DNA of 64,000 nt from Brachycybe producta (Eukaryota > Arthropoda > Diplopoda > Playtdesmida > Andrognathidae): contig JAUPFP010000003.1 in assembly GCA_036925085.1 (NCBI GenBank), positions 12,836,675-12,900,674 on the forward strand, read 5' to 3'. Made by a program: the position numbers and the translations under genes. Every line of letters begins with the position of its first letter. Positions within the stretch are counted from its first letter, which is position 1. Below are positions 12,294-62,926 of the stretch, piece by piece. The notes under the pieces were generated by a model. It had not been told where the DNA came from. It saw nothing but the letters and a program-made list of their open reading frames with translations, and did not search any database.

Positions 12294-15143
12294 TCACCCA
12301 TAAGATAAAACGCCTGGTAGTAATGCGGTTTGTAGGCATTCACTATGCGGTATGCAACAATCACCAGTGTCACCCCAAAATATGTATCCTTCAGCACACT
12401 CTTGTCCAACTTGACACTGACATGCAACCAGTATAAGTCCTATCGAACGGGTATTGCATACTGGAGGACATAGCACGCATGAACTATTAATTAGTGCATC
12501 AGGTACACAGTGTGGACCTGGAAAAAAAAAAGAAAGACATGTACATACACAAATACAAATTACATGTGAACTTTTGGAATCAAAAGAAAAACTTGAAAGC
12601 TAATTAACTTTTTGATATATCTAACATTGAAACCAGAGGCGGACTGGATTATCCCGGGGGGGGGAGGGCAATCGGGCATTTTTCCGATGAGCCGCAGACA
12701 GTGGCATAGTTGGTTTGTGCCGCCCTGGGTGGTGCTTGAGTTTGCCGCGAAAAACACAACACGATACACATCAGTGGCACAACCAGGATTCTCGTCTGGG
12801 AGGAGCCAAATGATATTGTCGATATCCAGTGATATAAATGGTTTATATAATTTTATATATAATATCCCAGTGTGTGTGTGGACTAACACTGTGTCAGAAT
12901 TTATATAAATTTAAATAAATGAAGAAATGAACCTCTTTTTTTTTTCTCAAGGTCAACTATATGTTGCACACTCCACATCCAAGAACCCCATGATATTAAT
13001 ATGGAGAGGGGGAAAGGTTGGAAAGTGTAGAGGGGGAGAGAGAGAGAAACGTGGAGGGGGGGGGGGGAAATTGGGAGGGGGTGACTGAAATTGGAGAGGG
13101 GAAAAGGTTGGAAAGTGTAAAGGTGGGAGAGAGAAAAACGTGGAGAGAGAACAAAGTGGGAGGGGGTGACTGAAATTGAATTGAAATGAAAGGAGGAAAA
13201 AAAGGAAAAAACGACGCGCATGCGCACAATTGCTTGTGAATTTTGCTCCCGTCATTTATGACGGGTTACTCCACTAGTTTTATATTAATTATGAAATTAT
13301 TCAATAAACCAGTAATCGGATTGCTGGATTGCAGAATACATTTTGCGAGTGCAGTGAGCTACAAAAATTTCATAATTTCTTCTTGGAACATCTTAAGAGA
13401 GTTTTATAAAGCTCCTTCTACAGTGTACTATCCCGACAGGAAAAAAAAAACTTTTCGTTGGTGTCGCCCCCTAGATTATCTAGTGGCCGCAGCGTTTGAT
13501 AGCCGGATTTACAATTATAGGGCTGAATTTAAATTAATGAAACGTAATATGAAAATTTAAAAATTGCTCAAAAATGGAAATACGTTTGGACGGTTTTAGC
13601 AATAAAAACTATCAAAAAAGAAAAGTTAAACTAAATGAAATATTTTTGTGTAACCCCTCCTCCTACTCAGTGGTTTAGAGAAAATTTCTCTTTTGCAAGC
13701 GAACGTTTTTTAGGAGGAACAAATTAAGAGGCTACATAGCAAAATTCCTTCGTAAAATCTCCACAAAGAGCACACTAGCATCGTTTTTCTATTGAGCCCA
13801 TAGACCCAATGTTAAAGAAGAAACGTTAATTTTTTTAAATACGAAGTCGCGGCTTTATGTTTATTTATTTTTTTTTATTTAAAGTTGTCCAATTTTGATG
13901 GTTCAAAGTGCAATCTGCACTTTTTAATATATGTAAATATTTAAAAATGGCGAATTTTAACTCTTTATGTTAAACGTCATTGAGTGAGAAAAACGACCAT
14001 TAAAATGTTCATAAAAATTCCTAAAATAATTTTCAAAAAAAAATTGATAAAAAACAGCACGTGTGCCAGTGTGTTGGCTTCACTGTGGTTTATTTTATAG
14101 TTTTTTTGGGTGTGTTTTTAGGAAAAAACGTATTACAAAACGTTTGCTTTGGATTCTGTGGATCGCACTTTATGACTTCGCGTGTGGGCAGGAAAATTTG
14201 TGCAATTATGTGAACTGCACGGAAACAGTACACGGAAACGAACAACTGAGGCCGAGAAGCTCAGTTATCCGCGACCTGGACAAACATGTCCGTGTGTGTG
14301 TGTGTGTGCGCGTGGTCGCGCCCGCCGTCTTCTCCTACACATGGTGCTCAGTTTTCGTTCGATTTTAGTGCGGGAACAGTGTTCGCAGAGTTTAATTCCG
14401 CAAAACTGAGTGGGGAAAAAACGGTGCTCAAAACTGTATTGTGTTTTATTAAGTTAAAAAAATTTTCTATTTTCTTTTTTTCCTTTGGTTTTATTAAGTT
14501 TGGATCAACCTTAAAATATTCATGATATTTTGCGTGAAATTCGGTTCGGAGACGATTTTTGTGTTAACGTCTGAATAAACAGACAAGAGACAAACGGACA
14601 AGAATAACGCTCGCACAAAGTAAAGAATCTAGCGGGCTGCGAAGGCGTGCGGGTAAGTAAATTCCAAGTTTGTCAAAAGTCTGACCTTGTGTGACTTATT
14701 AATAGTCATAGCAAAAGCATGCTAAAACCTTGAATTTTAATTTTCTATCGTGCATGACGTAATCCCGCAGTAACCAATCACAGTTTTACGCTCGTAGTTA
14801 TATGGTTACGGAAACGCGGCGGAATTGGGTTTTGTTGCGTTTGGAAATGAATTGTTAGGAGGCGCCGGGCTGCCAAATTTGCGTGGCCATGGCCCATGGG
14901 CTGCGCCGGGCCTAAAACCTTGAATTTGATGTCACTGTCGTGCGTGACGTACCGCGCATGACGTATTTCAGAAATAGCCAATAGCTTTAGGGTTTCGACG
15001 GTCAGACAGTCGGTTGGTTCAACCCAATTATTATGTTAATTTCGATTCAATTTATTTAACTTACGTCTAAATACTGGCACCGAATAGCTACACAAGACGA
15101 CCGCCAGAATGATAACGGCAAAGACTGTGAACAGTTGTTTCAT
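12294..15143 (-). CDS. Secreted 10-Cys peptide, two exons (TIL-like)
   Basis: Coding exon 1 is 15065-15143 and exon 2 is 12294-12517, giving 100 aa. Exon 1 (26 codons plus one base) encodes a hydrophobic signal peptide starting MKQLFTVFAV and ends at a GTAAGT donor. Exon 2 follows a pyrimidine tract and CAG acceptor. Both borders are phase 1, so the frame joins cleanly. The mature part has C-x9-C-x2-C-x3-C-x11-C-x1-C-x5-C-x12-CC-x5-C. Family: spacing resembles trypsin-inhibitor-like (TIL) domains but the CC pair is unusual. Inference: exported disulphide-rich peptide, possibly inhibitor, defence or venom. The 2.5-kb intron holds a Helitron and hAT scraps. Closest sister: the gene at 17595-19119. 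No expression evidence is available. Confidence 0.75.
12630..12795. mobile_element. hAT-like scrap in intron
   Basis: GC-rich segment with GGCGGACTGGATTATCCCGGGGG and GTGCCGCCCTGGG, resembling the CAGGCGGACTGG / CCGCCCTG ends of other hAT MITEs in this window. No target duplication was identified. Confidence 0.35.
12865..13277 (+). mobile_element. Helitron copy 6 in intron of the 12.3-kb peptide gene
   Basis: Starts TCCCAGTGTGTG after A and ends with hairpin plus CTAG before T. The purine block (GAGGGGGAGAGA to GGGTGACTGAAATTG) is duplicated inside. It lies antisense to the peptide gene. The stretch 13278-14700 shows no supported gene, although 14281-14400 is GC-richer and a GTAAGT donor-like site sits at 14651. 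Confidence 0.8.
14722..14950. repeat. Direct repeat flanking a GGCGCCGGGC segment
   Basis: CTAAAACCTTGAATTT followed by a TCGTGC(A/G)TGACGTA block occurs at about 14722-14762 and again at about 14911-14950. The segment between includes an inverted pair, GGCGCCGGGCTGCC and GGCTGCGCCGGGCC, with GGCCATGGCCCATGGG, so it is probably a MITE plus a duplicated flank. Confidence 0.5.
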
Positions 15144-15428
15144 TGCAGTTAATTATTGTTGCAAAGCTTAACGTTGTGAATTTTAACGTATTTTATCGAT
15201 CAGCAAAGAAGTGCACTTTAATGAAAAATAAAATTGATTACAAATAAAAAAAACTATAGAATATACAATAAAAATGGCCTACTCTTTAATTAACTAGTTT
15301 GCAATTACCTTTTTAATTGTCCTTAATGTTCTTTTTTTAACGGTTGCAGTCAGTTAGGTTACCTTTTGGTTTATCTTGGTTATGATATGACACCTACTTG
15401 GATGTTTAGTATTATATCAATGTTATTG

Positions 15429-15640
15429 TTGACAGCTATTTCTATTCTAGAGAAATACCAACATATGGTTTTGTTTGTTTAGGGAAAGCCTTGTAAATAT
15501 CAAGTATTTCTCCGAATATAGGCGCTGGTGATCGTTTTTGGTATAAAAATGGTTTTTGTCCCGGTATGGAAGTCACATAAAAATGAATATAAAAAGTAAT
15601 CAGTATGAATGAAGCCAAAACATTATTGCACGTGAAAGGG
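15429..15640. repeat. Fragments of the 7.9-9.1 kb element
   Basis: TTGACAGCTATTTCTATTCT is near-identical to 7858-7880, and AGGCGCTGGTGATCGTTTTT with AAAAATGGTTTTTGTCC matches the inner palindrome near 8640-8690. The stretch 15144-15428 has no recognisable feature. Confidence 0.5.
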
Positions 15641-15824
15641 GACCAAAAAAGAGCAAAAATGAAAACACATTTAAAGAGACCCATATACTATAGTACACAT
15701 CTGTTAATTTAAATGCATTTAAATAATAAACGTGTTCTACAGAGCCCTGTGAAGGGCAAACAAACAATATGTCGAATTCAATTTATTCAGTTAATAATTA
15801 TTATTATTTTATATATATATAATA

Positions 15825-15835
15825 TCCCAGGTCTG

Positions 15836-17594: not shown

Positions 17595-19119
17595 TCAGTC
17601 AAATGTAATGCCTGCAAATGTTGTGGTTTGTACGCATTCGCTGTTTGGTATGCAGCAATCGTCGGCGTCACCCCAAAATATGTATCCCGCAGCACACTCT
17701 TGTCCAACACGACATTCACATGCAACAAATATGTTTCCTATCGAATGGTAATTGCATATTGGAGGACATAGTACGCATGAACTGTTAATTAGTGCCTCGG
17801 GTACACATTGTGGACCTGAAAAGAAAAAACACGACATGCTGCTTTGTAAATGTTGAATACAATTTAAATCTTGCAGCTCTAAGCTGGCTCTTTTCTATTT
17901 CATGTATAAGATTAACTCGAAAAGAATTCCAAATTGGTGAACAATATTCTAATAGTCGTCTGACAAGAGTAAAGATCGATTCACGTTATACGAATCGTCA
18001 CCTTCACGGAACGTATCCCCACAGTCACGTCAATTAATGTTTCGTCATTCATGACGAGCTGTGACAGTGTCGGTCACACTTTCAGAATTGATCATCAACG
18101 TCACGGACCGACACACGTCAGTCACGTCAAAACATTCTTTTTGACGTTCCGTGACGGTACTGGTAAAATGTGAACGTTGCCCTAGAGAAAAACATTGTAT
18201 AATTGTTTGACGGGATGGTGATGGTACGTCCCGCGATGGTGACGGGCCGTGTCATGTGTAATCCGCTTTAAAACAACAGACCTCTTTTACATTTTCTTTA
18301 CAATATTTCAAAGTTTGCTGTACGAACAATGCAGCCTTTGATTGGCTTTGCTTACTGATTTTGTTATGCTTCTTCAAAAAGAAGTCTTTGGAGAAATTTC
18401 AACTGAGATTTTTAAAGCTGAGCGACCACTAAATCGGTGACGCGACGTGATGCAGCGCAGAGGAAAATGGCTCCCAAACGAAATGCCCATTGCCCCGTTC
18501 ATTAGAGTGGAAGAGCGGAGAAGGGCGTTGTGGCAAGACGTGGCACCGCTCTGGAAAAAAATCTTGAACTTCTTGAAGTCGGTGTTTTTCCACGCCATGC
18601 CACACTTCTTCGCGCTTCTGCCCTAATGGACGGGAGAGCAGAGTGGAATTTATCACGTTCCTTCCATAGTAAACCACACGTCCTCTTCTGCCGCCGCCAC
18701 TGTGGCCCAAAAAAACACTTCCTCGTCACTACTCACGAGTCATCACTGTATCCATGAATACTGTGGCGCATACTGGAGGAGGAAATAGGAATGGAAGGGA
18801 CAAAACTGCGTCGTGGCGTGCCGTGCCGCGTTCATAGTCGGACGAACCTTTACTTGAAAACTATGCGCCACGCCGTGTCGCGTCACCGACGTAATGGACG
18901 CTTACCTTAAAAGTATGGGAATGGACCTAAAAAGAAATCAGCCCTGAAAATGTTATTTTTTCAGAACTATGAAAAATTCCAAAATGTCTCTTTAGAACAA
19001 ATTGGAATGTATAGCAAACAGACAAACAAATTTCACTTACTGGGATTTGTTGGAAATGAATTGCTGCACATTATGGCCGCAAGAATAACAACGGCAAAGA
19101 TTGCGAGCGGTTGGTTCAT
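17595..19119 (-). CDS. Secreted 10-Cys peptide, two exons (TIL-like)
   Basis: Coding exon 1 is 19041-19119 and exon 2 is 17595-17815, giving 99 aa. Exon 1 starts MNQPLAIFAVVILAAIMC, a clear signal peptide, and ends phase 1 at GTAAGT. Exon 2 begins after TTTTTTCTTTTCAG. Cys pattern: C-x9-C-x2-C-x3-C-x11-C-x1-C-x5-C-x12-CC-x5-C, identical spacing to the 12.3-kb gene, with shared VPxALINSSCVLCPP and GYIFWGD stretches. A strong acceptor-like CTTCTTCGTTGCAG 47 bases upstream of ATG suggests an extra 5' UTR intron (inference). The intron carries two transposon insertions and LINE scraps. Function is not determined; probably an exported disulphide-rich peptide. Confidence 0.78.
17905..18375 (-). mobile_element. 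LINE fragment interrupted by an insert
   Basis: 17905-17975 (CCAAATTGGTGAACAATATTC) and 18283-18375 (CAGACCTCTTTTACATTTTC, GCAGCCTTTGATTGGCTTTG) match adjacent parts of the LINE at about 37120-37270. The ~300 bp between them, rich in GTCACG / CGTGAC, is an insertion of unknown type. Confidence 0.55.
18417..18906. mobile_element. MITE with TCGGTGACGCGAC ends
   Basis: The left end GCTGAGCGACCACTAAATCG and the right end (reverse complement GGTAAGCGTCCATTACGTCG) both continue into GTGACGCGAC. TTAAA flanks both sides (18412-18416, 18907-18911). GC is higher than the surroundings. Overlapping open frames on both strands are consistent with a fragment of foreign sequence rather than a gene. Superfamily uncertain. 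Confidence 0.55.
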
Positions 19120-22870: not shown

Positions 22871-23070
22871 TCATGTTTTAGGACACTTTTTAGGAGTCAC
22901 ACAACAGGTAGAATTTAGTAATACTAATCCTTCCGAGCGGATTGGAAGAAGGGGTTGTCCACGTATGCAATTTTCACAATGATCACCAGGAAGCTTGTAA
23001 TTCTGACACGTTTTCTGGCATGATACACAACCTGTTCGTATTGGAGGCTGGTCACAAGTTATATGAGATG
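22871..23070 (-). pseudogene. Second exon of a Cys-rich peptide gene, one Cys missing
   Basis: 200 nt: a phase-1 acceptor (TTCAAAATAG) followed by an open frame of 65 codons to TGA. Cys pattern: C-x8-C-x2-C-x3-C-x9-C-x2-C-x20-CC-x5-C, i.e. nine cysteines. The Cys normally found 12 residues before the CC pair is lost, although LVLLN, the equivalent of the family's YVLLN, is kept. CQKTCQNYK and TCCVTPKKC closely match the 33.5-kb gene (CPKTCQNYK, TCCVTPNKC). No signal-peptide exon was found upstream on this strand within the window's nearby sequence. It is either a decayed copy or a gene with a distant first exon. Confidence 0.55.
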
Positions 23071-23886: not shown

Positions 23887-25216
23887 ATGAGTTTGAAATG
23901 TTTCATTTTCCTGTTCGTTGTAATTAACATGGCAGATATTGTTTGTAAGTAGCAGATAATGTTTTTTTTTTAGTCTTGTAAATATTTATCGATCTTCTCG
24001 TTGATTTATTGTTGATTTTCTAAAGATGATAAAACTCTGGTTATTTTGTCTTTGAGAAGAGCGAAATTAAGAGAAATTTGAAAGTGTTTTAGAAACTAGA
24101 AGGGTAACTCGTAAAGAGGCCATTACGTCCAGAAATTTCTTTTTAAAACATTGTCAAGACTTACTCAATGATTGCCAAAACGATTTTTTAAATTTAAATT
24201 AAGTCATTAATATAATTTAAAAACTAAAAATCAGTTAACTTCCTATAAATGGACTTTATCAGATAAATGCGCCACCAAACAACAGACATTGGCAATAAAA
24301 AAACAACAAAGTATACTCCTCTACTGGAATTTTGATGTTGTCACCTCACATTATAGGCCTACTTTTAACTCCCTATTCAAATACATGTATTCCCTATTCC
24401 TATGAAAGTATTATGTATTTAATATTTGAATTATGCCACTTGCCACGTGGCTCTAGAGTTGATTGGAAGGTTGTTTTGAGTTTTAATATGACTAGAGAAT
24501 ACATGCATTTGATTAAGGAATTATGGAAATGTGAGGTGACAACATTTGCCACCATAAATTGAAGGGTAGACATTCGTTTTTTCGAAATTTAAAATGGCGT
24601 TGTTTGGTGACTCATAAAAGTCACTTCGTTTATAAATTTTTTTTATGATTTTAACGAATTATTTTCAATTTTAAAAATCATTTTGACAATATTTCAACAA
24701 AAAAATTCCTGGGTAGTACTGGTCTCTTTTAAGTGATTGCGGCGCTACCCTTCTAGTTTCTAAAACCCATTCAAGTTTCTTATTCATTTTGGTATGTGGA
24801 AGACAAGGATCACTCAAGAGTTTGAGAGAGGCCCCGTTTTACACTTTTAAATTTATACCAATAAATATTTCAACCTTCCTACAGTAAGTGGGCCCACCTA
24901 TGAAAAAGTTTGAGAACCGCGTGATTTATAATTGATAAGTTTAAAATATGAAGCATTGTTTTCGTATACGCAAATTTGATTAATAGTTTCAGATAAACCG
25001 GTAGTTTGTGATCGGAATGCAACATTAACAGCGTGCGGTGGATGTGCGAAAACGTGCGCAAATTACCAATCTCATTTCGAATGTCCCGATATTTGTTCGT
25101 TGGAAAGGGAATCTTATGGGTGTCCGGCACCATACGTATTGCTTGCTGCCGGTGGAAACTGTTGTGTTGCAACAAGTAAATGTCCCCATATTCTTAAACC
25201 ACCGTTAACATTGTAA
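23887..25216 (+). CDS. Secreted 10-Cys peptide, two exons (TIL-like)
   Basis: Exon 1 is 23887-23944 and exon 2 is 24993-25216, giving 93 aa. Exon 1 is MSLKCFIFLFVVINMADI plus V and a phase-1 base, a pure signal peptide, with donor GTAAGT. Exon 2 follows TTAATAGTTTCAG and continues in frame through Y. Cys pattern: C-x8-C-x2-C-x3-C-x8-C-x3-C-x8-C-x12-CC-x5-C with PYVLL before the CC. TATAAAAG at 23765-23772 is a candidate TATA box and AATAAA at 25296-25301 a candidate poly(A) signal. The 1.05-kb intron contains a foldback MITE. Likely an exported disulphide-rich peptide; function is inference only. Confidence 0.78.
24070..24785. mobile_element. Foldback MITE, AAACTAGAAGGGTA family, in intron
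   Basis: Left arm GAAACTAGAAGGGTAACTCG is mirrored by GCTACCCTTCTAGTTTCTAA; the homology extends outward through AAGTGTTTT / AAAACCCATT. The same family lies in the intron of the 33.5-kb gene and beside exon 1 of the 50.2-kb gene. Confidence 0.7.
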
Positions 25217-44520: not shown

Positions 44521-44647
44521 TACTGTGTCATACAACTAATTAAAATACAATAATTAACCTGAAATGATGAGAAATGGAAGAACAATCGATGAAAAAAACA
44601 CCAATTGAGAAGTTCCCCAGGCATCACAGTTTCTATAGACTCACGAC

Positions 44648-45339: not shown

Positions 45340-45979
45340 CTCACGAGACCTGCAGTTTCCAGAGACTAACGGGGCCGCGCAGTTTTGAAAACATCCTGTC
45401 TAAATCACAATTTCTAGAGGCTCCTGCTGGCTTGTTTATTCAATAACTTTTTTTGTAATTTTTAACTAATATAGCTGAAATTTCGTATACTTGTATTTTA
45501 TTATGTTGTTAACAACTAGCTTAAAATACAGAAATGTGGCTGTTCTGGTTTTTAAAATACGTATTTTTTCAAAAAAAAAAACTCATGTTACATGCACCAC
45601 TTGGCAGTGTATAAATTTGGATGTTTGGCACACCAGGGCCTAGAAGGACCGGTGCAGGCAGCAAATGCCGCCTTCCCGCCTGAGCCAGTATATGGCTGCC
45701 CGTGCTGCTGACTAAACATTTTATTCCTAGGGTCGGCCCTGCTGCGACTGTGCTATTTTAAAAACTAACATTGTTTCTTTAACATCGGGCCTATGTGTTC
45801 AATATATAAAAACGATTCTAGTGCTCTTTGTGAGACTCTTGCAATTTTAGTAGTAACACCATATAGTAACACTCATTTGTGTCATTGTTGTCTGCTGAAA
45901 ACAACAAGATGGAGGACGTGTATCTAGGCTTTTAAAATGGGGTACCCCCCCTATGCTGCCCATTAATCCAGTCAAAATC

Positions 45980-46184
45980 ACAAGCAGTTAAAAATCGGGG
46001 AGAACTTCAGTTGTCTCCGCCCTTGTTATGACGAACGCAACTTCTAATTGGTTGGTTATGTAGTCTGACGTCACATGCTCCGCCCTTTTCATCGTCGAAC
46101 CACACAACAAACCAATTAGAAGTTGCCGGTCGTCATAACAAGGGCGGAGCCCACTGAAGTTCTTCCCGATTTTTAACTGCCTGT
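45980..46184. mobile_element. ACAGGCA(G/A)TT MITE, copy A, 9-bp TSD
   Basis: 205 bp with ends ACAAGCAGTTAAAAATCGGG / ACAGGCAGTTAAAAATCGGG and a perfect 9-bp target duplication GTCAAAATC (45971-45979, 46185-46193). Arms contain GGGCGGAG and CCAATTAGAAGTTG as in 25385-25590. The stretch 45340-45979 has no gene; CAGGGCCTAGAAGG (45629) to GGTCGGCCCTG (45731) looks like another hAT scrap. Confidence 0.88.
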
Positions 46185-46449
46185 GTCAAAATCCAATAAA
46201 GACAACTTGTTGAATGATACTAGCTTTTTATTGTACAACCATGATGTTGAATACGTACATAAAATTACAAATACACTTTAATATTGAAGAGTATATACAC
46301 AGTGAGTCGGAAGTCTCCCGGAGAGGTCTGACTAAAAAAAATTAGTTTTCTGTAAATCGCCAACATGTCAAAAGTGATATCTTTTCACGTCAATGTTAGG
46401 CAGAGTATGAACTCACAAGAACAAGCGCACTGGGAATTTCCACGAGCAT

Positions 46450-46660
46450 GCATATTGACGGGCATCTCTGCCCAGCACTAAAGTTTTGTTTGCCCCATGC
46501 ACCCTTTTATGAGCGTCATCAATTTCTGATTGGTTAGTTACTTGGTCTGATGTCACATGCCTCGCTCTTTTTAATTTCTAATTGGTTGATATTTGGTCTG
46601 ATGCTCGTAAAAGAGCGGGCCCAACAAAATTTTACTGCTGGGCAGAGATGTCTCTCCAGA
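46450..46660. mobile_element. Foldback MITE, CATCTCTGCCCAGCA arms
   Basis: GGCATCTCTGCCCAGCACTA is mirrored by TACTGCTGGGCAGAGATGTC. The inner arms carry GAGCGTCATCAATTTCT and TTGGTCTGATGCTCG. It is followed by a partial ACAGGCAAATT element (46659-46790). Both recur in copy B at about 61952-62275. Confidence 0.7.
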
Positions 46661-47025
46661 TGACAGGCAAATTGGTGTGTGGTTCGACGTTGAAAAGGGC
46701 GGAGCATGTGACGTCACACTACATAAAAAGGGCGGAGCCAACTTCTGTTCGTCCCGATTTCTATTTGCGTTTGTCCAGATGCCGGTGCATCACCTTTTAT
46801 AGAGTAGGGACAGTCCACTTCCACCAAAAAGGGGGTGGCCATTCCCAGTCTCGTACAATGGGATCTCCCAGAATCTTGCTCAGCCAAATAAATTGAAAAT
46901 GTAAAGGAGAAGTAAGGACGAGTTAGAAAGGGTATCGATAAAGATATCGAAATCTACGACACTAGATATGAAAACAGCTGGCGGTAAATTATAAGCACAA
47001 TGATAATATGGCAGGCCAAAGCGAC

Positions 47026-47189
47026 ACAGGCATCTGTAGATAGCTTCAGAATTTCTTTGGCTCTGCCCTTTTATGAGCGTCATCAATTTCTACTTGGTTG
47101 ACAATTAGTTGATAATTGGTTGATATTTGGTCTGACGCTCTTAAAAGGGCGGAGCCAAAGAAATTCTGAAGCTGTCTACAGATGCCTGT
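47026..47189. mobile_element. ACAGGCATCTGTAGA MITE next to peptide exon
   Basis: 164 bp with ends ACAGGCATCTGTAGATAGC / ACAGGCATCTGTAGACAGC and flanks CAAAGCGAC / CAAAGAGAC (8 of 9). It ends 25 bp after the stop codon of the second exon at 47215, so it probably lies in the 3' UTR. In copy B the arms extend further (CAGTCTCTTTG), meaning part of the UTR is also present in inverted form. Confidence 0.75.
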
Positions 47190-47214
47190 CAAAGAGACTG
47201 GTAACATTAATTAT

Positions 47215-50214
47215 TTATATCTTTGTATTTGGACAATTTTTGCTAAGAACACAACAGACACTATTTTTATTGAGCAACACATATGGTTCGTCGCACACAA
47301 ATCCAATTTGACATGGTTGGCCACATGGGAAAAGGAAGTCGGACTCACATGTAGCAGGACATCTGACACATGCACTGAAGTTTAATGCATCGACGACACA
47401 TTTTGAACGATCAACTGAAATAACATTATAACAATTACTTTTAAAAAAAATATTTGTATTGCTACCTCACTATAAGTTTGAAGCTTGTGACGTCTGAGAG
47501 AGGGCGTTGGCGAAAGCTTTGGTCAATTTTAATTTGTCCAATAGGAACGCAGTATAAGTCTCAGAATCAATAGTATTCTAAACAGATGACGTCACAAGAT
47601 TCCTGTGAAAGCCTATAGTTACACACTTGGATACAAATTACAAAGTCATGCCGCAATGTATCGGGATTGTCTAGCAACTGTTGCGAGACTTTGTATCATC
47701 GCGCGTCCACACCTGGAGCCTTGTTATATGGTCATATCTAGCTCATCGAGCGGTCTGAAAGTGGTTGCCTAGGCCACTTATTCTATCCTGGTTCGGGAGG
47801 AAGGGAGCAAAATAGTCCCTTTCGTTTCCTCACAAGTTCCTCTACAAGAATCTTTACAGTAAAAAAGATCTTTTAGCTGTCTGTTATTCCTCGGACTTTC
47901 CCCCGACTAAAAGCTGGTTGATCGTGATGTCTTCGTCAGTTTCATCTAGTATTGGAGATCCAGGTTTGCACCTGGATTGACAGTTCTAGATGATAAAAAG
48001 TTAGAACTCTTCGTTTTATTCAATATGTATTAAAATACGACTGTAGCCACTTTTTGTACATAACAGTTTATTTCTTTAGCATCATTAAATTTCTAAACAA
48101 ACATGAGCATAGATTCGTTGTCTCAAGAATGCTTAAATTACATACAAACACACGTCCTTTTATACCCAAAAAGAGGATACTGAGAACACTTTCTCAGAAT
48201 CCTCCAATTGGCTATAAACAAAAGTAAAAACCAAATTGGCCAATCAAAAAACGATTGACCAGTGGTCACCAAAAATATTAGAGATGATTCATCCGTTTTA
48301 AAAGGGTAAAACTTCAAGTTAAAAAACATAAAATCCACTCATGTGGAAGGGCAATACAATAGCTATGAGGAGAGGAATGATAAGGTCAACTCTAAAAATA
48401 GAATCTGGGTCAATCGGTACCTTAAAGTACCCAGTGGCCCAGAAGCTACAACAAAATTCAAGGTGTCAACAAAAGTTAAAAAACCCACACTAAAACGGCG
48501 CTAAATAAAAAATAAAAGACTGGCTGCCCCAAACGTCTCAATATGACTATCATAAAATAATAGAGCATATAAGCAATGACATCATCACAGGCCCGGACTG
48601 GCCCGGCCGGCTGACCGGGGATTGCCGGTCAACTGGGGCCAAAAGAAAATGGGGGCCAAAAATAAATAAATTAAAAAAATGGGGCCAACACAATTTCATA
48701 GCCGGTGGGGCCAACCACTAGCCAGTCCGGCCCTGCATCATCGGGTATGATTGTCACATTTTTATGACTTTTTTCTATAAGGAAGCCCCTAATATCTAAA
48801 TCAGTGTTATCAGTCTTTTCTGCAAATTCTCTATCAGATTCAGAGTTTTATCAGTGGTCCACGTGTTCAGTTTTTGCACATTAGAAACTGACTGACGAGT
48901 TTTGTGTCTCGCAACACGTCCACACTACGAAATGTTGCACAACATTGTTTCATGTTTTCCATTTTGCGTAGGATACAAGTGACACATGAGAATTTCGTAT
49001 CGCAACAGTTTCACGAAACGGACAGTTTAGCAACTGTATCTCGACAATCGCTAGACAAGGCCAGGTGCAAGTGTCGCGCAACTTTGTATCCAAGTGTGAG
49101 ATAAAATGTGCAATGTGACATGCAACTTCATTGTTTATAGTCTGCTATAATATGCAACATGATAAAACTTTCCTTTTATCTAGTGTGAGACTCTAGTCTT
49201 ATCGAGTTGAACTGGTTCAACTTTGAAAGCTGACTTTTCAAGTTAACTTTCTGACAAACAACCAATCAGGCCATTGGCCTTCCTGTTTTTGAACTTCCTG
49301 TCAGTGGATCACAATTAGACCTGTGCGCCGTAGCATATTGATCGGCGGCGGCGGGCGAGGGTAAATACGAGCAGCGGCGGTGGCGACTACTGGCGTCTGG
49401 AATTGAACATATCGGAATGTGGTAATTATCGATATAAATTGAAGTCGATAAATATCGAATATGGTATCATTTCATTCCTATGGCAGATTTTGAAACCAAA
49501 CAAAACAAATTTGAATTTGGCGGCCGCCAGTCATACACCGGCGGCGAGTGGCGGCGGGTTTTTAAAAAAAAGTACAAGCGGTGATCGGCGGCGTTTTTAG
49601 CTTCAAAAACACCGGCGGCGGCGGTTTCGCCCGGCGGCGCACAGGTCTAATAACAATATCGACACAAACCAAGGGGGCAGACATTGAAGAAAATCATGGA
49701 CACTTTTCACTAAGATTCACAGCAGAGCGTGTGGATGGAAAGTCCTTTTACTTTTTAGCTGCATTTTACTGTATTATCCAGAATAGAATTGAAATTTGAA
49801 AATTCAGTAATTCCGATACCGTACGAGATTCACCCGAATGTCGGCCCCTTGACATAAACGAAGTTTTGAAAACTTGATTGGCAACTAGGTTGCATAGTGT
49901 GATATAGAAGTTTATTACAAAGTTCTAGTTGCAAGTCACATCACCAGTTGCATTGCAAGATGAATTGCATTAGAGGATGCTAGTGAAGTACCGGCTTTAG
50001 GCTGTGCAGTGAAATTACTACTAAGAGGGTTCCAATATAAAAAAAAAATTAAACTGTCGGAAACTCTGTGCAGCATGCAGTTGAAATGATTATAATGGAC
50101 AAGTCCACACATCATGTGGAACCGGTATTAATTAAACTTACATCTTTCGTTTAATGCATACGAGAAAGTGAACGAGATTGCTACCAGAGTGACAATAATC
50201 AGTATTTGGCTCAT
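47215..50214 (-). CDS. Secreted 10-Cys peptide, two exons (TIL-like)
   Basis: Exon 1 is 50142-50214 and exon 2 is 47215-47414, giving 90 aa. Exon 1: MSQILIIVTLVAISFTFSYA signal peptide, phase-1 end, GTAAGT donor; ATG directly follows TTTTTAG, so a 5' UTR intron is likely. Exon 2 follows TTATTTCAG and joins through F. Cys pattern: C-x9-C-x2-C-x3-C-x7-C-x3-C-x5-C-x12-CC-x5-C, with CPATC and PYVLL. This copy is the most TIL-like of the set. The 2.7-kb intron contains the right border of the segmental duplication (48285), so copy B (62727-62926) has only the second exon. Role: exported disulphide-rich peptide, inferred. Confidence 0.78.
47497..47665. mobile_element. Foldback element remnant, GGCGTTGGCGAAAGC
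   Basis: Relative of the 25605-25762 element (CCAATAGGAACGCAGTA shared). In copy A the segment between GAAGCTTGTGACGTCTGAGA and TCGGGATTGTC is present; in copy B it has been replaced by a perfect hairpin of the left arm. Confidence 0.5.
48588..48735. mobile_element. hAT-type MITE, CAGGCCCGGACTGG ends
   Basis: 148 bp, left CAGGCCCGGACTGGCCC, right reverse complement CAGGGCCGGACTGGCTAGTG, target duplication CATCATCA / CATCATCG (7 of 8). It lies in the intron of the 47.2-50.2 kb gene, just outside the duplication border. Confidence 0.85.
49316..49649. mobile_element. CGG-rich hAT-type MITE
   Basis: TAGACCTGTGCGCCG at both ends (inverted), target duplication ATCACAAT / ATAACAAT (7 of 8). Packed with GGCGGC / GCCGCC triplets around an AT-rich core containing ATCGATAT. 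Inverse-oriented twin at 52153-52520. Its open frames are artefacts. Confidence 0.88.
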
Positions 50215-54203: not shown

Positions 54204-55100
54204 TTACCCAGTTTCAAGATGGCGGTGCCCAAAAATAAGAAAAACATCCTACAAAAAGTATGTGGTGCCGCCGCACATGCGCAGAAGAAACTCTGGCAAC
54301 TATAATTGGTCGAATCCTGTTCATCCCGTTCATTCGTTCATCTTTTTAGCCTGACCCGCCATACTTTGCTTAACAATAGGAATACGTCTATGAAAATCAT
54401 TACAACTGAATCATCATTGGAGTAAAGACACATGTAAACGAGTTTCTAAGCAAAAGGTGTGGGACATTTGCATTAAAAACACTTGCCCTAAAGCCATTTG
54501 CCCTATAGACACTTGTCCTAAAATCATTTGCCATAAAGGGACATTTGCCCTAAGACACTTGCCTTAAAGACACTTGCCCTAAAAGGACATTTGCCTTAAA
54601 ACCATTTGTCCTAAAACTATTTGCCTTAAAACTATTTGCCCTAAAGGGACAGTTGAACTAAAGCTAGAGGGCTACAACCAGCCTGCAGCAACCAGCAGCC
54701 GGTAAACCAGCCTTGTGTGAATGCGTCATTAGTGAGAACTTACTCCTAGTGCCAGACAGAGTAAATACTCCTTTTACTTAAAGCAACTTTATTCGTACGA
54801 AAAGGAAGTAAATTTTCATTTCTTGAGAAGTTACTCTGCTTTTTGTTGAGTTACTCGTGAATAAATGCTCAAGTTTATTAATACAACTCATTATTTTTTT
54901 TCCAGTGATTCCTGTCTTAAGACGCGTACATACCAGAATTAAATGTTCGCAAACCGCTCAGGAACTGTTCGAGAGCTGCTCGCGAGCATAACGTGTACTT
55001 CAAAAAAATTAGCGTATTCACGTTCGCATGGCGAACAGCTCTTAAGATTTTGTTTGTTAGTTTGTCAAGAGTTCGCTTTGTTAAGTTTGTTTGTAATAAG

Positions 55101-55394
55101 TAGGGCTCGGATTTTTATGCAATATTGAGCAAATTTTTCTCAATTTGTGGCCCAAGTGCCAATTATGAAGTAATCATTTGAGCAAACTGCAATTATGCTT
55201 TTTCTAATAAAAAATGACGGGTTAGAGGCTAGATGCCTTGTTAACTACAGTTTTAGCCTCTAACCAGTGTTTTTAAATGAAAAAAGAAATTATAATTGAT
55301 GGTTGATTTAAACAATATTGTTACTTCGTAACTGGCTCTTTGGCCAAATATTGAGAAACGTTTGCTTTGATATTGCATAAAAATCCGAGCCCTA
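55101..55394. mobile_element. hAT-type MITE present only in copy B
   Basis: 294 bp, ends TAGGGCTCGGATTTTTATGC (inverted at the right), perfect 8-bp target duplication GTAATAAG (55093-55100, 55395-55402). The empty site GTAATAAG is seen once at 39835-39842 in copy A, so it inserted after the duplication. Confidence 0.95.
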
Positions 55395-55780
55395 GTAATA
55401 AGTTAGCACGAATTGTTTGTAATAATTCTAAACTGGCGAGACGAGCTCACATTAACGTCTAAAGACCAGGTTTTCTGTTCGGCAGATGTCCGAGAACCAA
55501 CCCTTTGATGTTACCGCCTCAAGAACGAACTTTTTACCGGTTTGCAAACTGGTCCCGAACTGTTCGCAAACTCTTCTAGAACGGCTCGCGAGCTTGGTCT
55601 ATAGGTGGCTTTAAGATTTGAAGTTAATTAGTTTGTAATCAGTAATTAAAAGGCATTTTTTTTTTCTAATATTTTTTATTTACCACATAACAAGAATTAA
55701 ATTCTAACATTTGAATAAGGCATCTGCTATTACGTGAAATTAATTATTTAACTTCCATTAATGACCTGACAAATACCCGT

Positions 55781-56183
55781 TTATAAGGGTGGGCAGGTAT
55801 CGACACAGCAATCGCTGTCGATACTTAGCAACTTATAAGGTTCAGTGCAGGTATATCCATCTCGACATCCTTTAGGACAAGTGAAGAACAAATTTCCTAC
55901 AATTCCACATCTTGCTGGACATAGAGTACTACAATTATTGTAGACTGCTGCTCCTTCAATACATTTTGGAGGAGCTGGAGTTGAAGTTGACTCTAGAAAT
56001 TGTAGAAATAAGGCTAAGTTTAGATAATTTAAATTGACACAAATGACTGATGTCACACTTACCACTGGTAGTACTCTCAATACCGTTGGTAGTACTCTCA
56101 ATACCGTCTGTACTATCTGTTGGCACTGAAACAACGATGTATACCGCTGCTGCCAGGATAAGAATTACGCATGTTGGATTCAT
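55781..56183 (-). CDS. Secreted 10-Cys peptide, two exons, copy B
   Basis: Exon 1 is 56063-56183 and exon 2 is 55781-55992, giving 110 aa; the intron is 70 bp, as in copy A. Signal peptide MNPTCVILILAAAVYIVV. A 21-bp tandem duplication in exon 1 repeats GIESTTN-like linker sequence, adding seven residues. Cys pattern as copy A: C-x9-C-x3-C-x3-C-x9-C-x3-C-x5-C-x12-CC-x3-C. Against copy A I count six amino-acid-changing and one silent substitution in coding sequence; in the mature domain all four changes alter amino acids (V to L, I to F, H to D, S to T). Frame, splice sites and stop are intact, so both copies look functional. Confidence 0.82.
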
Positions 56184-57010
56184 TGTTCGTGATAATTATT
56201 GCTAAAAATATAATATAATTGTTAGTATGGGGGTCTTTTTTTCATAGGCCGGCTGCTAGTACACTGTGTAAAGCGCTATATACATGGGTAAGGGTGACCA
56301 CTCCTAAGAAATTAGGAGATTTTTGTGCAAACAGACTCGTGTGTTTCTGGTGTCATTTGTACCTAGCATCATTCGACAATGGAATTTGGTTCCAGAGGAT
56401 GTTGTGCCATTTGGGAATGTTATGATTTGGAGGAAAATTCTTAGGGGTTTGCTCCCATTGTAAATTGTGAGATCAAAGGTGACCTTTATTGTAACCCATT
56501 GAAGCAAAAAACGTGATGCAATAAAAGAAGCTTTCATGGCTGACAGCTTGGCTTGCCACCTTTCCTATTTTGTGGAGGACAGTCCTCCATTCAGAGGAAA
56601 TGTCCTCCAACCAGGACCTCGTCCTCCATGAAGGCAAACGTGTCCTCCACACAATAAATTGTATAAAAACTTAAATACGTTCATGGAAAAATGGTCCTGG
56701 CCGGAGGATAGTTCTTCCGAATGGAGGACTGTCCTCCACAGGTGGCATTAAGCCTACTGACAACTTTATACATTCAGAAGTTCTGGTGACATTTGATGAT
56801 TTTTCACAAAAATGAGGTAAATGGAAAAAAAAATTGAAAATTCTAATGTAGCCTATACCAAGAAGCCAATCTAAAGATGTGCATACTGGTTAATTTTTCA
56901 CGATTCTAGAGTGTGTGGTTTCCGAGAACATTCGTGCTCAAAGGGAGGGAGGGAGAGGTAGAGAGAGAGAGTCAGCCCTTACCAAATTATGATATTAGAT
57001 GCTTTGCGAT

Positions 57011-57292
57011 CAGTACCGTCTTTACTATAAGAGCACACGGGGCCCGTGCCCAGGGCCCCCGACCTCACGGGGGCCCCGAAAGGCCGATATATTCGCTTAC
57101 ACGAAAAAAAGGAGTTCAATTTGTTTTCTATTTTTAGGTAGATACCTACTAAGAATTTCCGTCAACATTTCTAAATTGAAATGTTAATTGGACACCAGAT
57201 CAGATTTTTAAATTTTTTCTAATTTTTACTATCCAACGGGGCCCCCAATTCTTGTGTGCCCAAGGGTCCCGACATGCCCTAAGACGGCCCTG
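57011..57292. mobile_element. hAT-type MITE present only in copy B, GGGCCC-rich
   Basis: 282 bp, ends CAGTACCGTCTT / CAGGGCCGTCTTAGGGC, 8-bp target duplication TTTGCGAT / TTTGAGAT (7 of 8). The uninterrupted site TTTGCGATTTTTCATC is at 41562-41577 in copy A. GC-rich block GGGCCCGTGCCCAGGGCC near the left end. Confidence 0.92.
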
Positions 57293-60142
57293 TTTGAGAT
57301 TTTTCATCTAAAAAATACACGAAATAAAATGAAAATGATATATTTTAAATTAATTTCGTTTTTGTATTTATTTCGTATTTAAATTTCGTTAATGGTTTGC
57401 GTTCTGCCAAAACGAAACAAATTAAAATAAAACACGAAATATCACATTTTTGGCTACAATTAAAACCTAAAACAAAAAGTACCTATATGCATTACTAAAA
57501 CCATAAATTACCACAGCGACAACAAGGGATGGAAATGGTAATAACAGCAAATAAATAAAATGTAACAATAAACAATACATGCTTTGCGCACTACAAAACG
57601 AAATGTTAGAAAATACGAAATACATTAAAAATACGATATACAATATTTAAAATTATTTCGTATTTTCAGTCTAATTTTAAGTGTCGTTGCGATATTTTTT
57701 TTTTCGTGATGGCAATGTTATTGCCATTTCCATCCCTTGTTGTCGCCGTGGTGATTTCTGGTTTTAGTAATGCACATAGGTTCTTTTTGTTTCAGGTTTT
57801 AATGGTAGCCAAAAATGTCATTTTTCGTGTTTTATTTTAATTTGTTTCGTTTTGGCAGAACGCAAAACCATTAACAAAATTTAATTACGAAATAAATAAA
57901 AAAAAAAGAAATTAATTTAAAATATATCGTTTTCATTTTATTTCGTGTATTTTTGGACGAAAAATCGCAAAGCATTTAATTAAATATTATAATCTACTTT
58001 TAACCTAACATCTGCTGCTTTTTGTTGAGCAAATTTAATACTTTCATGCACTCATTTCTTCAAAATATTCCATTGTTCGTTTGTAGTGGGGGAAAAAAAT
58101 GGCTGCTTTTTTGATTCAAAATGTCAACAAACACGCATGCGCGACATTTTCGTGGTAACGAAATATAATAAATCTTTCTCACGAAAAAAATATAAAAATA
58201 TCGTAAAACGATATTTGTAAAATTAGACTGAAAATACGAAATAATTTTAAGTATATCGTATTTTTAATGTATTTCGTATTTTCTCACATTTAGTTTTGCA
58301 TTTATTAGAATATTAATTATGTATTCTACAGTATATAATTAACCCACTTACTCTAAATGGTCCGTATTATTGTCCGAGCCTTCCAAACGTAGATTCTCGT
58401 TTGATGCATTTTTGTTTCTGCTATTTATATGAAACCTTTTATTTGATTTTCTTACTAACTTTTAATTTAATTGTGATTGACTTCTGGCTTGTGTTACACA
58501 TGCGTCTTTCAGAATATTATTGTATTTTATGTAAAACAATAAAAAAAAACCTTGCCAGACATTGTAATAAATACAAATTTACATTACTTGTGTAGATAAT
58601 TGAGTGTATTGTGTTTGCAATTGTACAGTGAACACCTATGCAAGCACTTACTTTTTATGTCACTTTGCAGAACATATGTTATTAAAAATTAGATTGTAAA
58701 ACAAACTTAAGTGCGTTCTGAAACCATGTGCAGCTTAATTTGCTAAGGCCCAACTTTTTTTTTTCTGTCTCTCTCTCTCTGTTTTTTTGCACACGAGTTT
58801 TGTCGGAAATGACTAACTCTTAAGGCCTTGTTTCCACCGGAGTGAAAATTTGTATTCGGGGGAAAATTTCAACTGGTGAAAAATAACAGTGTTTCCTATG
58901 GAGAAATTGTGTTAATGCAATAGTTTACCAAATGCAGACCAAATGCAGACCAAACGTTGATCCCGCCTACACTGTTAAAACAAAAGGTGCCTTAGGGGTG
59001 CCATATGACCCTTAAAGGTGCCTAATTTCACCCAAACTGTATTTTAGTGGCACCTTCAACATCCAAAATCATTTTTAATGAAAAAATGTACAAATTTATT
59101 AATTGTAGCAGGTTATGGATGTAATGCATTTGACAACTTGAATTAAAAACATAAGAAAACATATGTTTCACTCAAATTCAGTGTATTTTGATGAAGTAAA
59201 ATTCACAACTATGGCATCTTGTTTTAGAAGTGCCATTAGGCACCTAAATTGGCGTAGGGGTATGCTAACTTTATTTAAGTTTGAATTCAACAAATATCAA
59301 ACAAGATAACAATCATATTTATAAGTTGCTAATACTTCCATTTATCTTATTTATCTCAATTTTGCAATGGAAGAGTTGGTGTGAAATTTGTGATTTAAAT
59401 TGTTCAAGAATTATTTATAATTTGGATCTAGTTTTTGAAGTGGTAAGAATTACCTTTAGTAAATTTTTACTTTCATTTGTATCATTTTTTTTTTCTTTTC
59501 TCTTTTTACTTTCTATTTCCAAATATTACAATTTCGATTTTAAAATTAATTTTTTTTTTCTTTTTAGGACATTTTTTTTAATTTTTTATTTCCAAAAACA
59601 CATTTTAAGTTACTTTTAAATTTTTTTTTCACACTAATTGTAACTATACCTTTTTGGTTCTCTTTTTACTTTATATTTCCAAATATTATATTTTCAATTT
59701 TAGCAATAATTTTTTTTTACTTTTTAGGTCTTTCTTTTATTTTTTGATTTCCAAAAACACATTTTAAGTTACTTTTTTAAAGTTTTTTTTCCACGCTAAA
59801 TATACCTTTTTGGGTTCTCTTTTTACTTTCTGTTTCCATATATTAAAATTTCAATTTTAACATTAATTTTTTACTATTATCGGTTGTTCGTTATGTTAGG
59901 CCAATTGAAGTGAGAAAACCACATTCGCTCTACCACTTTAAACCATAAATTGCCATTTCTCATCAATATTTACATCAAAACGGCGTTATTTTTTTTGTAA
60001 AACTATAGTTATATACTGTATGTCATACAACTAATTAAAATACAATAATTAACCTGAAATGATGAGAAATTGAAGAAAAATCGATGAAAAAAACACCAAT
60101 TGAGAAGTTCCCCAGGCATCACAGTTTCTATAGACTCACGAC

Positions 60143-60838
60143 CAGGGGCGCAGCTAGGCAACGGCAAGACCAGCAACTGCGGGGGCGCAGCTAGGCAACG
60201 GCAAGACCAGCAACTGCAGGGGGCGCAGGTTTGGGGCACAAAGAACGAAATGAAAGTTATGTATGTTCAAAAATAATTGAATAAATTGAGTGATTTCAAA
60301 TTGCTTGCTTAATTTATTCAGTTAAATTAGACAATAAATCGACTTTTATTTAATATTTACTTATAAAAGCTTGCAATAGTAAATCTTCATAGAGATCAAT
60401 TGGCACGGCGGAACGGTAAGAACAACGGTAGGAATAGTCGGAAAAATAGTAGGAACAGTCAGAATCTTAGGTTTGGTTAAATTAAGCTTGTTGCAGGGTG
60501 GTTGGGGCACAGCCTCCAGTTTTTAAAGAATTATTAAATCAAATTAGTCCATTGTTCGATTGTTTCCTAATTTGATTAACGGGGGGGAACGTTCGGAACA
60601 ATGGACAAATTTGTTTTAATAATTCTTTAAAAACTGGGGGGCTGCACCCCAGACCCCTGCAACAAGATTAATTTCCTAACCTTTCCTGACCTTCCGACTG
60701 TTCCTACTGTTGTTCAGACCTGTTCTGCCACTCATCAAAATAGCACCCTCACCCAGTATGAGAGCTTTTCAGAGATGAAGGTAAGGGGATGCAAAGTGAT
60801 AAGTGGCGGGGGCACAACAACGCCTAGCTATGCCACTG
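60143..60838. mobile_element. hAT-type MITE, CAGGGGCGCAGCTAGG ends (copy B)
   Basis: Counterpart of 44648-45339 with the same target duplication CTCACGAC / CTCACGAG, so it predates the segmental duplication. The left-end duplication is shared. Confidence 0.85.
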
Positions 60839-61478
60839 CTCACGAGACCTGCAGTTTCTAGAGACTAACGGGGTCGTGCAGTTTTGAAAACATCCTGTCT
60901 AAATCACAATTTCTAGAGGCTCCTGCTGGCTTGTTTATTCAATAACTTTTTTTGTAATTTTTAACTAATATAGCTGAAATTTCGTATACTTGTATTTTAT
61001 TATGTTGTTAACAACTAGCTTAAAATACAGAAATGTGGCTGTTCTGGTTTTTAAAATACGTATTTTTTCAAAAAAAAACTCATGTTACGTGCACCACTTG
61101 GCAGTGTATAAATTTGGATGTTTGGCACACCAGGGCCTAGAAGGACCGATGCAGGCAGCAAATGCCGCCTTCCCGCCTGAGCCAGTATATGGCTGCCCGT
61201 GCTGCTGACTAAACATTTTATTCCTAGGGTCGGCCCTGCTGCGACTGTGCTATTTTAAAAACTAACATTGTTTCTTTAACATCGGGCCTATGTGTTCAAT
61301 ATATAAAAACGATTCTAGTGCTCTTTGTGAGACTCTTGCAATTTTAGTAGTAACACCATATGGTAACACTCATTTGTCTCATTGTTGTCTGCTGAAAACA
61401 ACGAGATGGAGGACGTGTAGCTAGGCTTTTAAAATGGGGTACCCCCCCCCTATGCTGCCCATTAATCCAGTCAAAATC

Positions 61479-61683
61479 ACAAGCAGTTAAAAATCGGGGA
61501 GAACTTCAGTTGTCTCCGCCCTTGTTATGACGAACGCAACTTCTAATTGGTTGGTTATGTAGTCTGACGTCACATGCTCCGCCCTTTTCATCGTCGAACC
61601 ACACAACAAACCAATTAGAAGTTGCCGGTCGTCATAACAAGGGCGGAGCCCACTGAAGTTCTTCCCGATTTTTAACTGCCTGT
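61479..61683. mobile_element. ACAGGCA MITE, copy B
   Basis: Counterpart of 45980-46184 with identical 9-bp target duplication GTCAAAATC (61470-61478, 61684-61692). Confidence 0.88.
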
Positions 61684-62536
61684 GTCAAAATCCAATAAAG
61701 ACAACTTGTTGAATGATACTAGCTTTTTATTGTACAACCATGATGTTGAATACGTACATAAAATTACAAATACACTTTAATATTGAAGAGTATATACACA
61801 GTGAGTCGGAAGTCTCCCGGAGAGGTCTGACTAAAAAAAATTAGTTTTCTGTAAATCGCCAACATGTCAAAAGTGATATCTTTTCACGTCAATGTTAGGC
61901 AGAGTATGAACTCACGAGAACAAGCGCACTGGGAATTTCCACGAGCATGCATATTGACGGGCATCTCTGCCCAGCACTAAAGTTTTGTTTGCCCCATGCA
62001 CCCTTTTATGAGCGTCATCAATTTCTGATTCGTTAGTTACTTGGTCTGATGTCACATGCCTCGCTCTTTTTAATTTCTAATTGGTTGATATTTGGTCTGA
62101 TGCTCGTAAAAGAGCGGGCCCAACAAAATTTTACTGCTGGGCAGAGATGTCTCTCCAGATGACAGGCAAATTGGTGTGTGGTTCGACGTTGAAAAGGGCG
62201 GAGCATGTGACGTCACACTACATAAAAAGGGCGGAGCCAACTTCTGTACGTCTCGATTTCTAATTGTGTTTGTCCAGATGCCGGTGCATCACCTTTTATA
62301 GGGTAGGGACAGTCCACTTCCACCAAAGAGGGGGTGGGCCAGTCCCAGGTTCGTACAATGGGATCTCCCGGAATCTTGCTCAGCCAAATAAATTGAAAAT
62401 GAAAAGGAGAAGTAAGGACGAGTTAGAAAGGACATCGATAAAGATATCGATCTCTACGACACTAGACATGAAAACAGCTGGCGGTAAATTATAAGCACAA
62501 CGATAATATGGCAGGCCAAAGCGATACAGTCTCTTT

Positions 62537-62701
62537 GACAGGCATCTGTAGACAGCTTCAGAATTTCTTTGGCTCCGCCCTTTTATGAGCCTAATCAATT
62601 TCTACTTGGTTGACAATTAGTTGATAATTGGTTGATATTTGGTCTGACGCTCTTAAAAGGGCGGAGCCAAAGAAATTCTGAAGCTGTCTACAGATGCCTG
62701 T
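62537..62701. mobile_element. ACAGGCATCTG MITE, copy B, with extended arm
   Basis: Counterpart of 47026-47189. Here the left arm is preceded by CAGTCTCTTTG, the reverse complement of the CAAAGAGACTG that follows the right arm, so the palindrome is 11 bp longer on each side. Copy A lost this 12-bp piece between two ACA triplets. Confidence 0.75.
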
Positions 62702-62726
62702 CAAAGAGACTGGTAACATTAATTAT

Positions 62727-62926
62727 TTATATCTTTGTATTTGGACAATTTTTGCTAAGAACACAACATACACTATTTTTATTGAGCAACACATATGGTT
62801 CTCCACACACAAATCCAATTTGACATGGTTGGCCACATGGGAAAAGGAAGTCGGACTCACATGTAGCAGGACATCTGACACATACACTGAAGTTTAATGC
62901 GTCGACGACACATTTTGAACGATCAA
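62727..62926 (-). CDS. Orphan second exon of a 10-Cys peptide gene, copy B
   Basis: 200 nt, open from the TTATTTCAG acceptor to TAA, with all ten cysteines in the pattern C-x9-C-x2-C-x3-C-x7-C-x3-C-x5-C-x12-CC-x5-C. Compared with 47215-47414 it has two changed residues (A to V, D to G) and three silent changes. The signal-peptide exon of the parent (50142-50214) lies outside the duplicated block, and no replacement is visible between 62927 and 64000 on this strand. It may use a first exon beyond the window, or be a stranded exon. Confidence 0.6.

Follow-up and report, generated by a model that had tools for sequence, protein, structure and literature searches.

What are the small, cysteine-rich, two-exon genes that lie along 64,000 nucleotides of the genome of the millipede Brachycybe producta, and what might their products do? 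This stretch (C3:12836675-12900674, C3 being contig JAUPFP010000003.1 of assembly GCA_036925085.1) is called the window below, and the genome searched around it is the 295-Mb assembly of 442 contigs. The answer that we consider likely is that these genes encode tandem-duplicated secreted peptides derived from trypsin inhibitor-like (TIL) proteins, that one cysteine of the TIL set has been exchanged in them, and that most of them probably inhibit serine proteases.

Gene models and extent of the cluster

A sequence-only reading of the window had reported nine loci, seven of them complete genes made of a short signal-peptide exon, a phase-1 intron and a second exon encoding a ten-cysteine domain. 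This observation of two-exon genes is confirmed. Each of the seven introns begins with a GTAAGT donor and ends with an AG acceptor, and in all seven the join yields one frame of 87-110 amino acids from ATG to stop, with the intron in phase 1. The exons are as follows (window coordinates; Pn and Pn' denote positions in the presumed reactive loop between cysteines 5 and 6, treated below).

g1 exon 1, 15065..15143, minus strand: signal-peptide exon MKQLFTVFAVIILAVVLCSYSVPVFR, GTAAGT donor, phase 1; similar exon 1 in L034 and L035
g1 exon 2, 12294..12517, minus strand: 10-Cys CC domain; C5-C6 loop of one residue
g2 exon 1, 19041..19119, minus strand: signal-peptide exon
g2 exon 2, 17595..17815, minus strand: 10-Cys CC domain; C5-C6 loop of one residue
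g3 exon 1, 23887..23944, plus strand: signal-peptide exon, matching g4 exon 1
g3 exon 2, 24993..25216, plus strand: 10-Cys CC domain; P2-P1-P1' = PDI
g4 exon 1, 33476..33545, plus strand: signal-peptide exon
g4 exon 2, 35995..36188, plus strand: 10-Cys CC domain; P2-P1-P1' = DIS; an extra Cys directly upstream of the domain
g5 exon 1, 40577..40676, minus strand: signal peptide and beginning of a Ser/Thr linker
g5 exon 2, 40295..40506, minus strand: 10-Cys CC domain; P2-P1-P1' = PKG (P1 Lys); 70-base intron
g6 exon 1, 50142..50214, minus strand: signal-peptide exon MSQILIIVTLVAISFTFSYALNER; close copies in L011, L012 and L013
g6 exon 2, 47215..47414, minus strand: 10-Cys CC domain; P2-P1-P1' = GQP
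g7 exon 1, 56063..56183, minus strand: duplicate of g5 exon 1, with a linker 7 residues longer
g7 exon 2, 55781..55992, minus strand: 10-Cys CC domain; P2-P1-P1' = PKG (P1 Lys)

Could such first exons arise by chance? A blind scan of both strands ignored second exons and required no more than an ATG, a hydrophobic core within 14-49 open codons, and GTAAGT in phase 1. It returned seven exons, identical to those listed, whereas the same scan of 20 order-2 Markov simulations of the window averaged 0.3 exons and never gave more than 3; the hexamer GTAAGT occurs 25 times in the window, both strands counted. A profile built from the seven found nine exon-2-like frames above its inclusion threshold in the window, namely those of the seven genes and of two lone exons, g8 and g9. 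The motif C-x12-CC, with the last cysteine 3 or 5 residues further on, is present in 8/8 intact window domains. In six of the seven genes (g6 being the exception) the stop is followed by a poly(A) signal no more than 400 bases on, and in four a TATA-like box precedes the ATG by at most 200 bases; both are raw counts with no chance control.

The two lone exons, counted as loci in the sequence-only reading, are incomplete and make a weaker case than the seven genes. One of them lies in a segmental duplication.

g8 exon 2, 62727..62926, minus strand: duplicate of g6 exon 2 within the segmental duplication
g9, 22874..23062, minus strand: lone exon-2-like frame with 9 Cys, the seventh missing
segmental duplication copy A, 39064..48285, no strand assigned: carries g5 and g6 exon 2
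segmental duplication copy B, 54314..63662, no strand assigned: carries g7 and g8

The two copies are 92-98% identical at an offset of about 15.25-15.5 kb, and the match of copy B ends, at 63662, at the counterpart of the g6 intron. Since one event copied both, g5/g7 and g6/g8 are not independent pairs, which leaves six independent intact lineages, older than these copies, in the window. The flanks covered by L010 and L011 (394 bases between these are uncovered) yielded no exon 1 belonging to g8; the only exon-1 match in them stands before the next gene, at C3:12903211. A search for an exon 1 of g9 found none, and g9 is a probable degenerate pseudogene, to judge from its sequence.

How far does the family reach? 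Nine loci over 50 kb had been proposed; the cluster is real but this size is not, for about 50 exon-2 places are spread over 450 kb. Genome searches with g6, g1, g4 and g7 gave matches only on C3, between 12.557 and 13.009 Mb. Thirty-seven exon-2 places on C3 were read, and 13 weaker ones in the same 450 kb are located by matches alone (five queries with other members, E 2e-5 to 0.006; six of the 13 have a stop codon in at least one alignment), all these counts being lower bounds. The same five queries also gave weak matches at C3 11.54 Mb and on C9, and recovered those already known on C36 and C30. Of 38 matches examined (the 37 places on C3 and the one on C36), 32 show the full CC pattern with ten cysteines.

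Exon-1 candidates, hydrophobic and in phase 1, were found upstream of 10/27 loci elsewhere in the cluster, using a looser donor and no chance control. (The scan gave 11 candidates; the one at L014, which overlaps exon 2, is left out of the count. The 16 loci without a candidate may lack one because the flank covered only 1.5 kb.) Several resemble those of the window: MSQILIIV in L011-L013 is of the g6 type, MNHQLFAIF in L034/L035 of the g1 type, and MNPACLIV in L018 of the g5 type, while L005, L007 and L024 share another candidate, with GTAAGA donors. At these last three loci (C3 12.610, 12.631 and 12.617 Mb) one exon-1 candidate precedes a pair of CC-type TIL exons separated by about 260-280 bases, and on this arrangement they are possibly two-domain or alternatively spliced genes. 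The second exons of L011-L013 (C3 12.903, 12.914 and 12.923 Mb) do not differ by a nucleotide over 219 bases; they are presumably very recent copies.

Some members have departed further from the common pattern. L034 and L035 (C3 12.830 and 12.816 Mb) are relatives of g1 in which more cysteines have been moved or lost, L034 having nine and L035 carrying a CC at its first cysteine. The CC-type paralogue L049 (C3:12577056-12576769) has a domain with only eight cysteines. The whole may be a large secreted-peptide cluster, apparently absent from annotation, and we infer that short exons are the cause of such annotation misses.

Relation to TIL and the exchanged cysteine

To which family do the domains belong? 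The sequence-only reading had left the choice between an offshoot of TIL and a separate family, and had proposed PF01826 as a check. The evidence favours a TIL offshoot, by way of CC-type paralogues in the cluster that pass PF01826 and of profile matches in the PDB. A genome search with PF01826, which is not biased towards the CC pattern, gave 16 matches, all over the cut-off of 24.5 bits (near E 3e-5): 11 on C3, four on C30 and one on C36. Those on C3 flank the window on both sides, eight at 12.58-12.63 Mb and three at 13.00-13.01 Mb, and all have the CC. Scores within the cluster form a series (L005, 38.8 bits; L029, 31.9; L021, 27.7; L060, 24.5; L018, 19.9), and L035, L047 and L011 give no match. 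L005 also matches AMCI-1 (E 2.2e-7) and von Willebrand factor (E 3e-8), the latter match falling, we assume, in the TIL domains of that protein. One locus outside the cluster, L068 (C30, about 2365940-2369998), is an open frame of at least 1353 amino acids in which a canonical TIL domain precedes a GDPHY motif; the motif marks it as probably a protein of the von Willebrand D type.

A profile of the eight window domains matched the TIL inhibitors BSTI (1hx2, E 8.4e-7) and AMCI-1 (1ccv, E 0.005) in the PDB over their full length; C/E-1 reached E 0.25. In hhalign the window-domain profile gave 90% for AMCI-1 and 83% for its Apis florea homologue. When the cysteine columns were held fixed and the other gapless columns permuted, none of 300 shuffles came up to the unshuffled score, either for AMCI-1 (20.3, the best shuffle giving 14.3) or for the Apis florea protein (15.2, a slim margin over the best shuffle at 14.9). 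Because shuffles that keep the cysteines lose the TIL score, the likeness exceeds cysteine spacing. Descent from TIL is on these comparisons well supported, through the paralogues rather than through the window genes themselves.

Several results weigh against this reading. The window genes lie below the PF01826 cut-off that the 11 C3 paralogues exceed: 0/7 full-length window proteins pass it (any TIL match in 5/7, best E 0.0076), as do 0/8 window domains (any match in 4/8, best E 0.0035). With g6 alone as query, the first PDB match is complement receptor 1 (E 3e-5, a sum of weak pieces of which none passes alone), and AMCI-1 appears only at E 4.6; complement-control domains also occur in the profile search, some above AMCI-1 (E 0.0025). 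AlphaFold models were poor, both for the eight window domains (mean pLDDT, the predicted local distance difference test, 56.1) and for these together with two Apis TILs (48.3), and Foldseek found 0 PDB matches with the better, still poor model (56.1). An identity as complement-control domains was considered and rejected: the matches span 23-48 residues or sum weak pieces, and never cover a whole domain.

Searches of a protein collection gave 200 candidates for the seven full window proteins, none at E 0.01, and 24 for the eight window domains, none at E 10; the queries were window members, the more TIL-like cluster members not being among them. No relative was confirmed in the viral and prokaryotic contig collections scanned, and such collections prove little.

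What distinguishes the cluster domains from canonical TILs? The sequence-only reading had named the CC pair and the missing C-x-C as distinctive marks, and both are upheld in all cluster domains readable as far as the C-terminus. Twenty-nine distinct cluster domains were aligned with five canonical TILs (four from C30/C36, one from honey bee). In the Cys7 column a Cys stands in 0/29 cluster domains (Tyr in 17, Phe in 4, other residues in 8) versus 5/5 canonical ones. The column directly before Cys9 holds Cys in 29/29 versus 0/5, a result that is partly by construction because the domains were picked by a pattern requiring CC. (Left out of the 38 matches were those at C3 12577056, with 8 Cys, 12816689 and 12830778, g9, the fragment at 12961029 and the canonical C36 match.) Reading by eye, CC is present at the C-terminus of 36/36 C3 places, the thirty-seventh being a fragment with no C-terminus. 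TIL cysteines 1-6 and 8-10 keep their order in 8/8 intact window domains, with the new Cys added, and the gaps between cysteines differ by a few residues from those of BSTI and AMCI-1; deleting Cys7 from BSTI and placing a Cys before its Cys9 gives a spacing that corresponds to that of the window domains.

The disulfides of canonical TILs are given as 1-7, 2-6, 3-5, 4-10 and 8-9 (PMC10004685, PMC3606364). In cluster domains, which have no Cys7, the bond 1-7 is impossible. Cys1 is kept while its partner is gone, so that a bond between the new Cys and Cys1 is the simplest inference. One of the two adjacent cysteines, most simply the new one, would then take over the role of Cys7, and five disulfides would be retained with one of them re-routed, as predicted from the alignment. 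Did this happen once? A tree was built from 56 columns, the two exchanged ones removed, with five canonical TILs beside the cluster domains; the Apis florea TIL, BSTI and a partial C30 match at 2382128 were not among them. In this tree the cluster does not form a single clade (3 changes), yet such a clade is not rejected (p-AU, from the approximately unbiased test, 0.185). A single origin of the exchange is therefore neither shown nor excluded.

Function and rival readings

Ascaris-type inhibitors carry P2, P1 and P1' of the protease-binding loop between Cys V and VI (PMC3606364). This loop has three residues in 26/29 distinct cluster domains and in 6/8 of those in the window, the exceptions being g1 and g2 (one residue) and one distant member (four). 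P1 in the 26 three-residue loops is Gln (6), Leu (4), Lys (4), Asp (4), Glu (2), Ile (2), Ser (2) or Ala (2); the window loops read P-D-I in g3, D-I-S in g4, P-K-G in g5/g7 and G-Q-P in g6/g8. Across the six window lineages C5-C6 is the segment least alike. Reactive-site hypervariability is not claimed, and the data do not demonstrate selection at the reactive site, because P1 over the 29 domains is no more variable than some other positions; its entropy of 2.87 bits is high but matched elsewhere.

The course of events that we propose is that tandem duplication built up a cluster of small peptides descended from TIL (Ascaris-type) inhibitors. The hydrophobic, signal-peptide-like first exon would direct secretion, the peptides would take the TIL fold, and most members would act as standard-mechanism serine protease inhibitors through the P2-P1-P1' loop, with specificity varied by P1. 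For g5 and g7, with Lys at P1, trypsin-like targets are predicted.

The rival that survives best supposes that these TIL-derived peptides are no longer protease inhibitors but, as in venom and immune peptides, have kept the disulfide scaffold while their loops diverged to bind something else, such as channels, receptors or the surfaces of microbes. The one-residue C5-C6 segment of g1 and g2 is not a usable loop, g6/g8 carry Pro at P1', and other members have Asp, Ile or Gln at P1, all of which speak for this rival. So does the lacewing venom paper PMC12758981, which describes TIL-like genes without canonical disulfides, one derived paralogue having lost the domain, and whose reference list cites an Ascaris-type KCNQ1 inhibitor. 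On the other side, exactly three residues between C5 and C6 in 26/29 distinct domains is what functional TIL inhibitors have, and g5/g7 show a classic basic P1. As an account of the whole cluster we judge this loss of inhibition unlikely, though well ahead of the other rivals. For g1 and g2 themselves, the one-residue loop suggests that inhibitor activity has probably been lost. The pattern of loops as a whole fits a secreted inhibitor family diversifying by duplication, with some members drifting away.

A more ambitious account is that a TIL lineage fixed a compensatory cysteine exchange which re-routed one of the five disulfides (Cys1 pairing with a new Cys next to Cys9 and not with Cys7) and left the number of cysteines unchanged, and that this lineage then radiated to about 50 loci, part of which swapped the protease-binding loop for another function. 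We advance it tentatively, as a possibility to which we give less than even weight.

Might the window instead hold mostly decaying duplicates, the cluster being real but many copies untranscribed or pseudogenes? The degenerate g9 and the absence of an exon 1 for g8 in the flank covered would agree with this, as would g5/g7 exon 2, in which 4 nonsynonymous and 0 synonymous changes are too few to be informative. (For the same reason positive selection in g5/g7, considered at one point, was dropped.) However, seven frames and their splice sites are intact, and exon-2 ratios of nonsynonymous to synonymous divergence (dN/dS) lie below 1 in three pairs: g1/g2 (0.178/0.413), g3/g4 (0.496/1.3, near saturation) and g6/g8 (0.016/0.092, only 6 changes). 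Moreover, the DNA of g1 and g2 is alike over 62 bases of exon 1, counted from the ATG (77%), and over 278 columns of exon 2 (78%), and elsewhere only in a dinucleotide repeat. In g3/g4 exon 1 matches over 35 bases (86%), and part of exon 2 and intronic stretches match too. General decay is very improbable.

Least credible of all is a separate cysteine-rich family, such as the arthropod single-domain von Willebrand factor C (VWC) proteins, which also end in CC-x4-C, with the TIL likeness due to convergence: a CC near the end is no TIL feature and the window genes fall below the TIL cut-off, but the paralogues with the same CC pattern rise in graded steps to 38.8 bits against PF01826 (cut-off 24.5), the cysteine-preserving shuffles lose the TIL score, and no VWC-type family was listed for the seven window proteins, eight window domains or eight cluster domains in Pfam scans at E up to 10, where HMMER filters drop most matches above about 0.1.

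The window has other features besides. Two non-LTR (long terminal repeat) retrotransposon remnants lie at 29923-32930 (plus strand; endonuclease PF14529 and reverse transcriptase PF00078) and at 36707-37651 (minus strand; a reverse transcriptase piece). At 38838-38897 TTAGG-like units form a short array arranged head to head (GGTTA, then CCTAA x4); TTAGG is the usual insect telomere unit, and the array points weakly to an arthropod host. Related minisatellites with ATTTGCCCTAAAA-like units occur at 6470-6983, 21957-22412, 39213-39397 and 54463-54646, of which the last two are counterparts in the two copies of the segmental duplication.

Comparison with known TIL systems

Disulfide patterns of small secreted peptides are usually taken as fixed family marks. 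A genome that holds both canonical and exchanged forms makes it possible to ask directly how a disulfide moves and whether this alters specificity. TIL clusters with a common exon structure, and TIL domains with missing cysteines, are already known, and a silkworm survey allows four or five disulfide pairs for TIL (PMC3278429). The titles and abstract openings listed by literature searches gave no description of a TIL cysteine exchange of the present kind, which is a weak negative.

The cluster peptides are like AMCI-1 of honey bee, BSTI of Bombina, C/E-1 of Ascaris and PF01826 in having ten cysteines with much the same spacing in single-domain peptides, and most members match the three-residue Cys5-Cys6 loop of TIL inhibitors. 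They are unlike them in having lost Cys7 of the Cys7-x-Cys8 pair and gained a Cys directly before Cys9, and in that window members score below the Pfam cut-off. Changed cysteine sets, with P1 affecting specificity, are likewise described in PMC10004685 for the eight-cysteine TIL inhibitors BmSPI38 and BmSPI39 of silkworm and CvT-TIL of Cotesia; BmSPI38/39 lack the whole Cys2-Cys6 pair and CvT-TIL is reported to have eight cysteines, whereas here one cysteine has moved and ten are kept. The green lacewing genes N-TIL-like-1/-2 and Neuropterin-1 (PMC12758981) also combine altered cysteines with a conserved signal peptide and exon structure. Compared by description only, the lacewing genes lack canonical disulfides or the whole domain, whereas the millipede cluster keeps ten cysteines. 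The TIL genes of Pteromalus puparum (PMC5691223) are likewise clustered and of similar exon-intron structure. There, compared by description only, five genes lie on one scaffold and the pairing is given as 1-7, 2-6, 3-5, 4-10 and 8-9; the B. producta cluster differs in comprising about 50 places, with the cysteine exchanged in those that were read.

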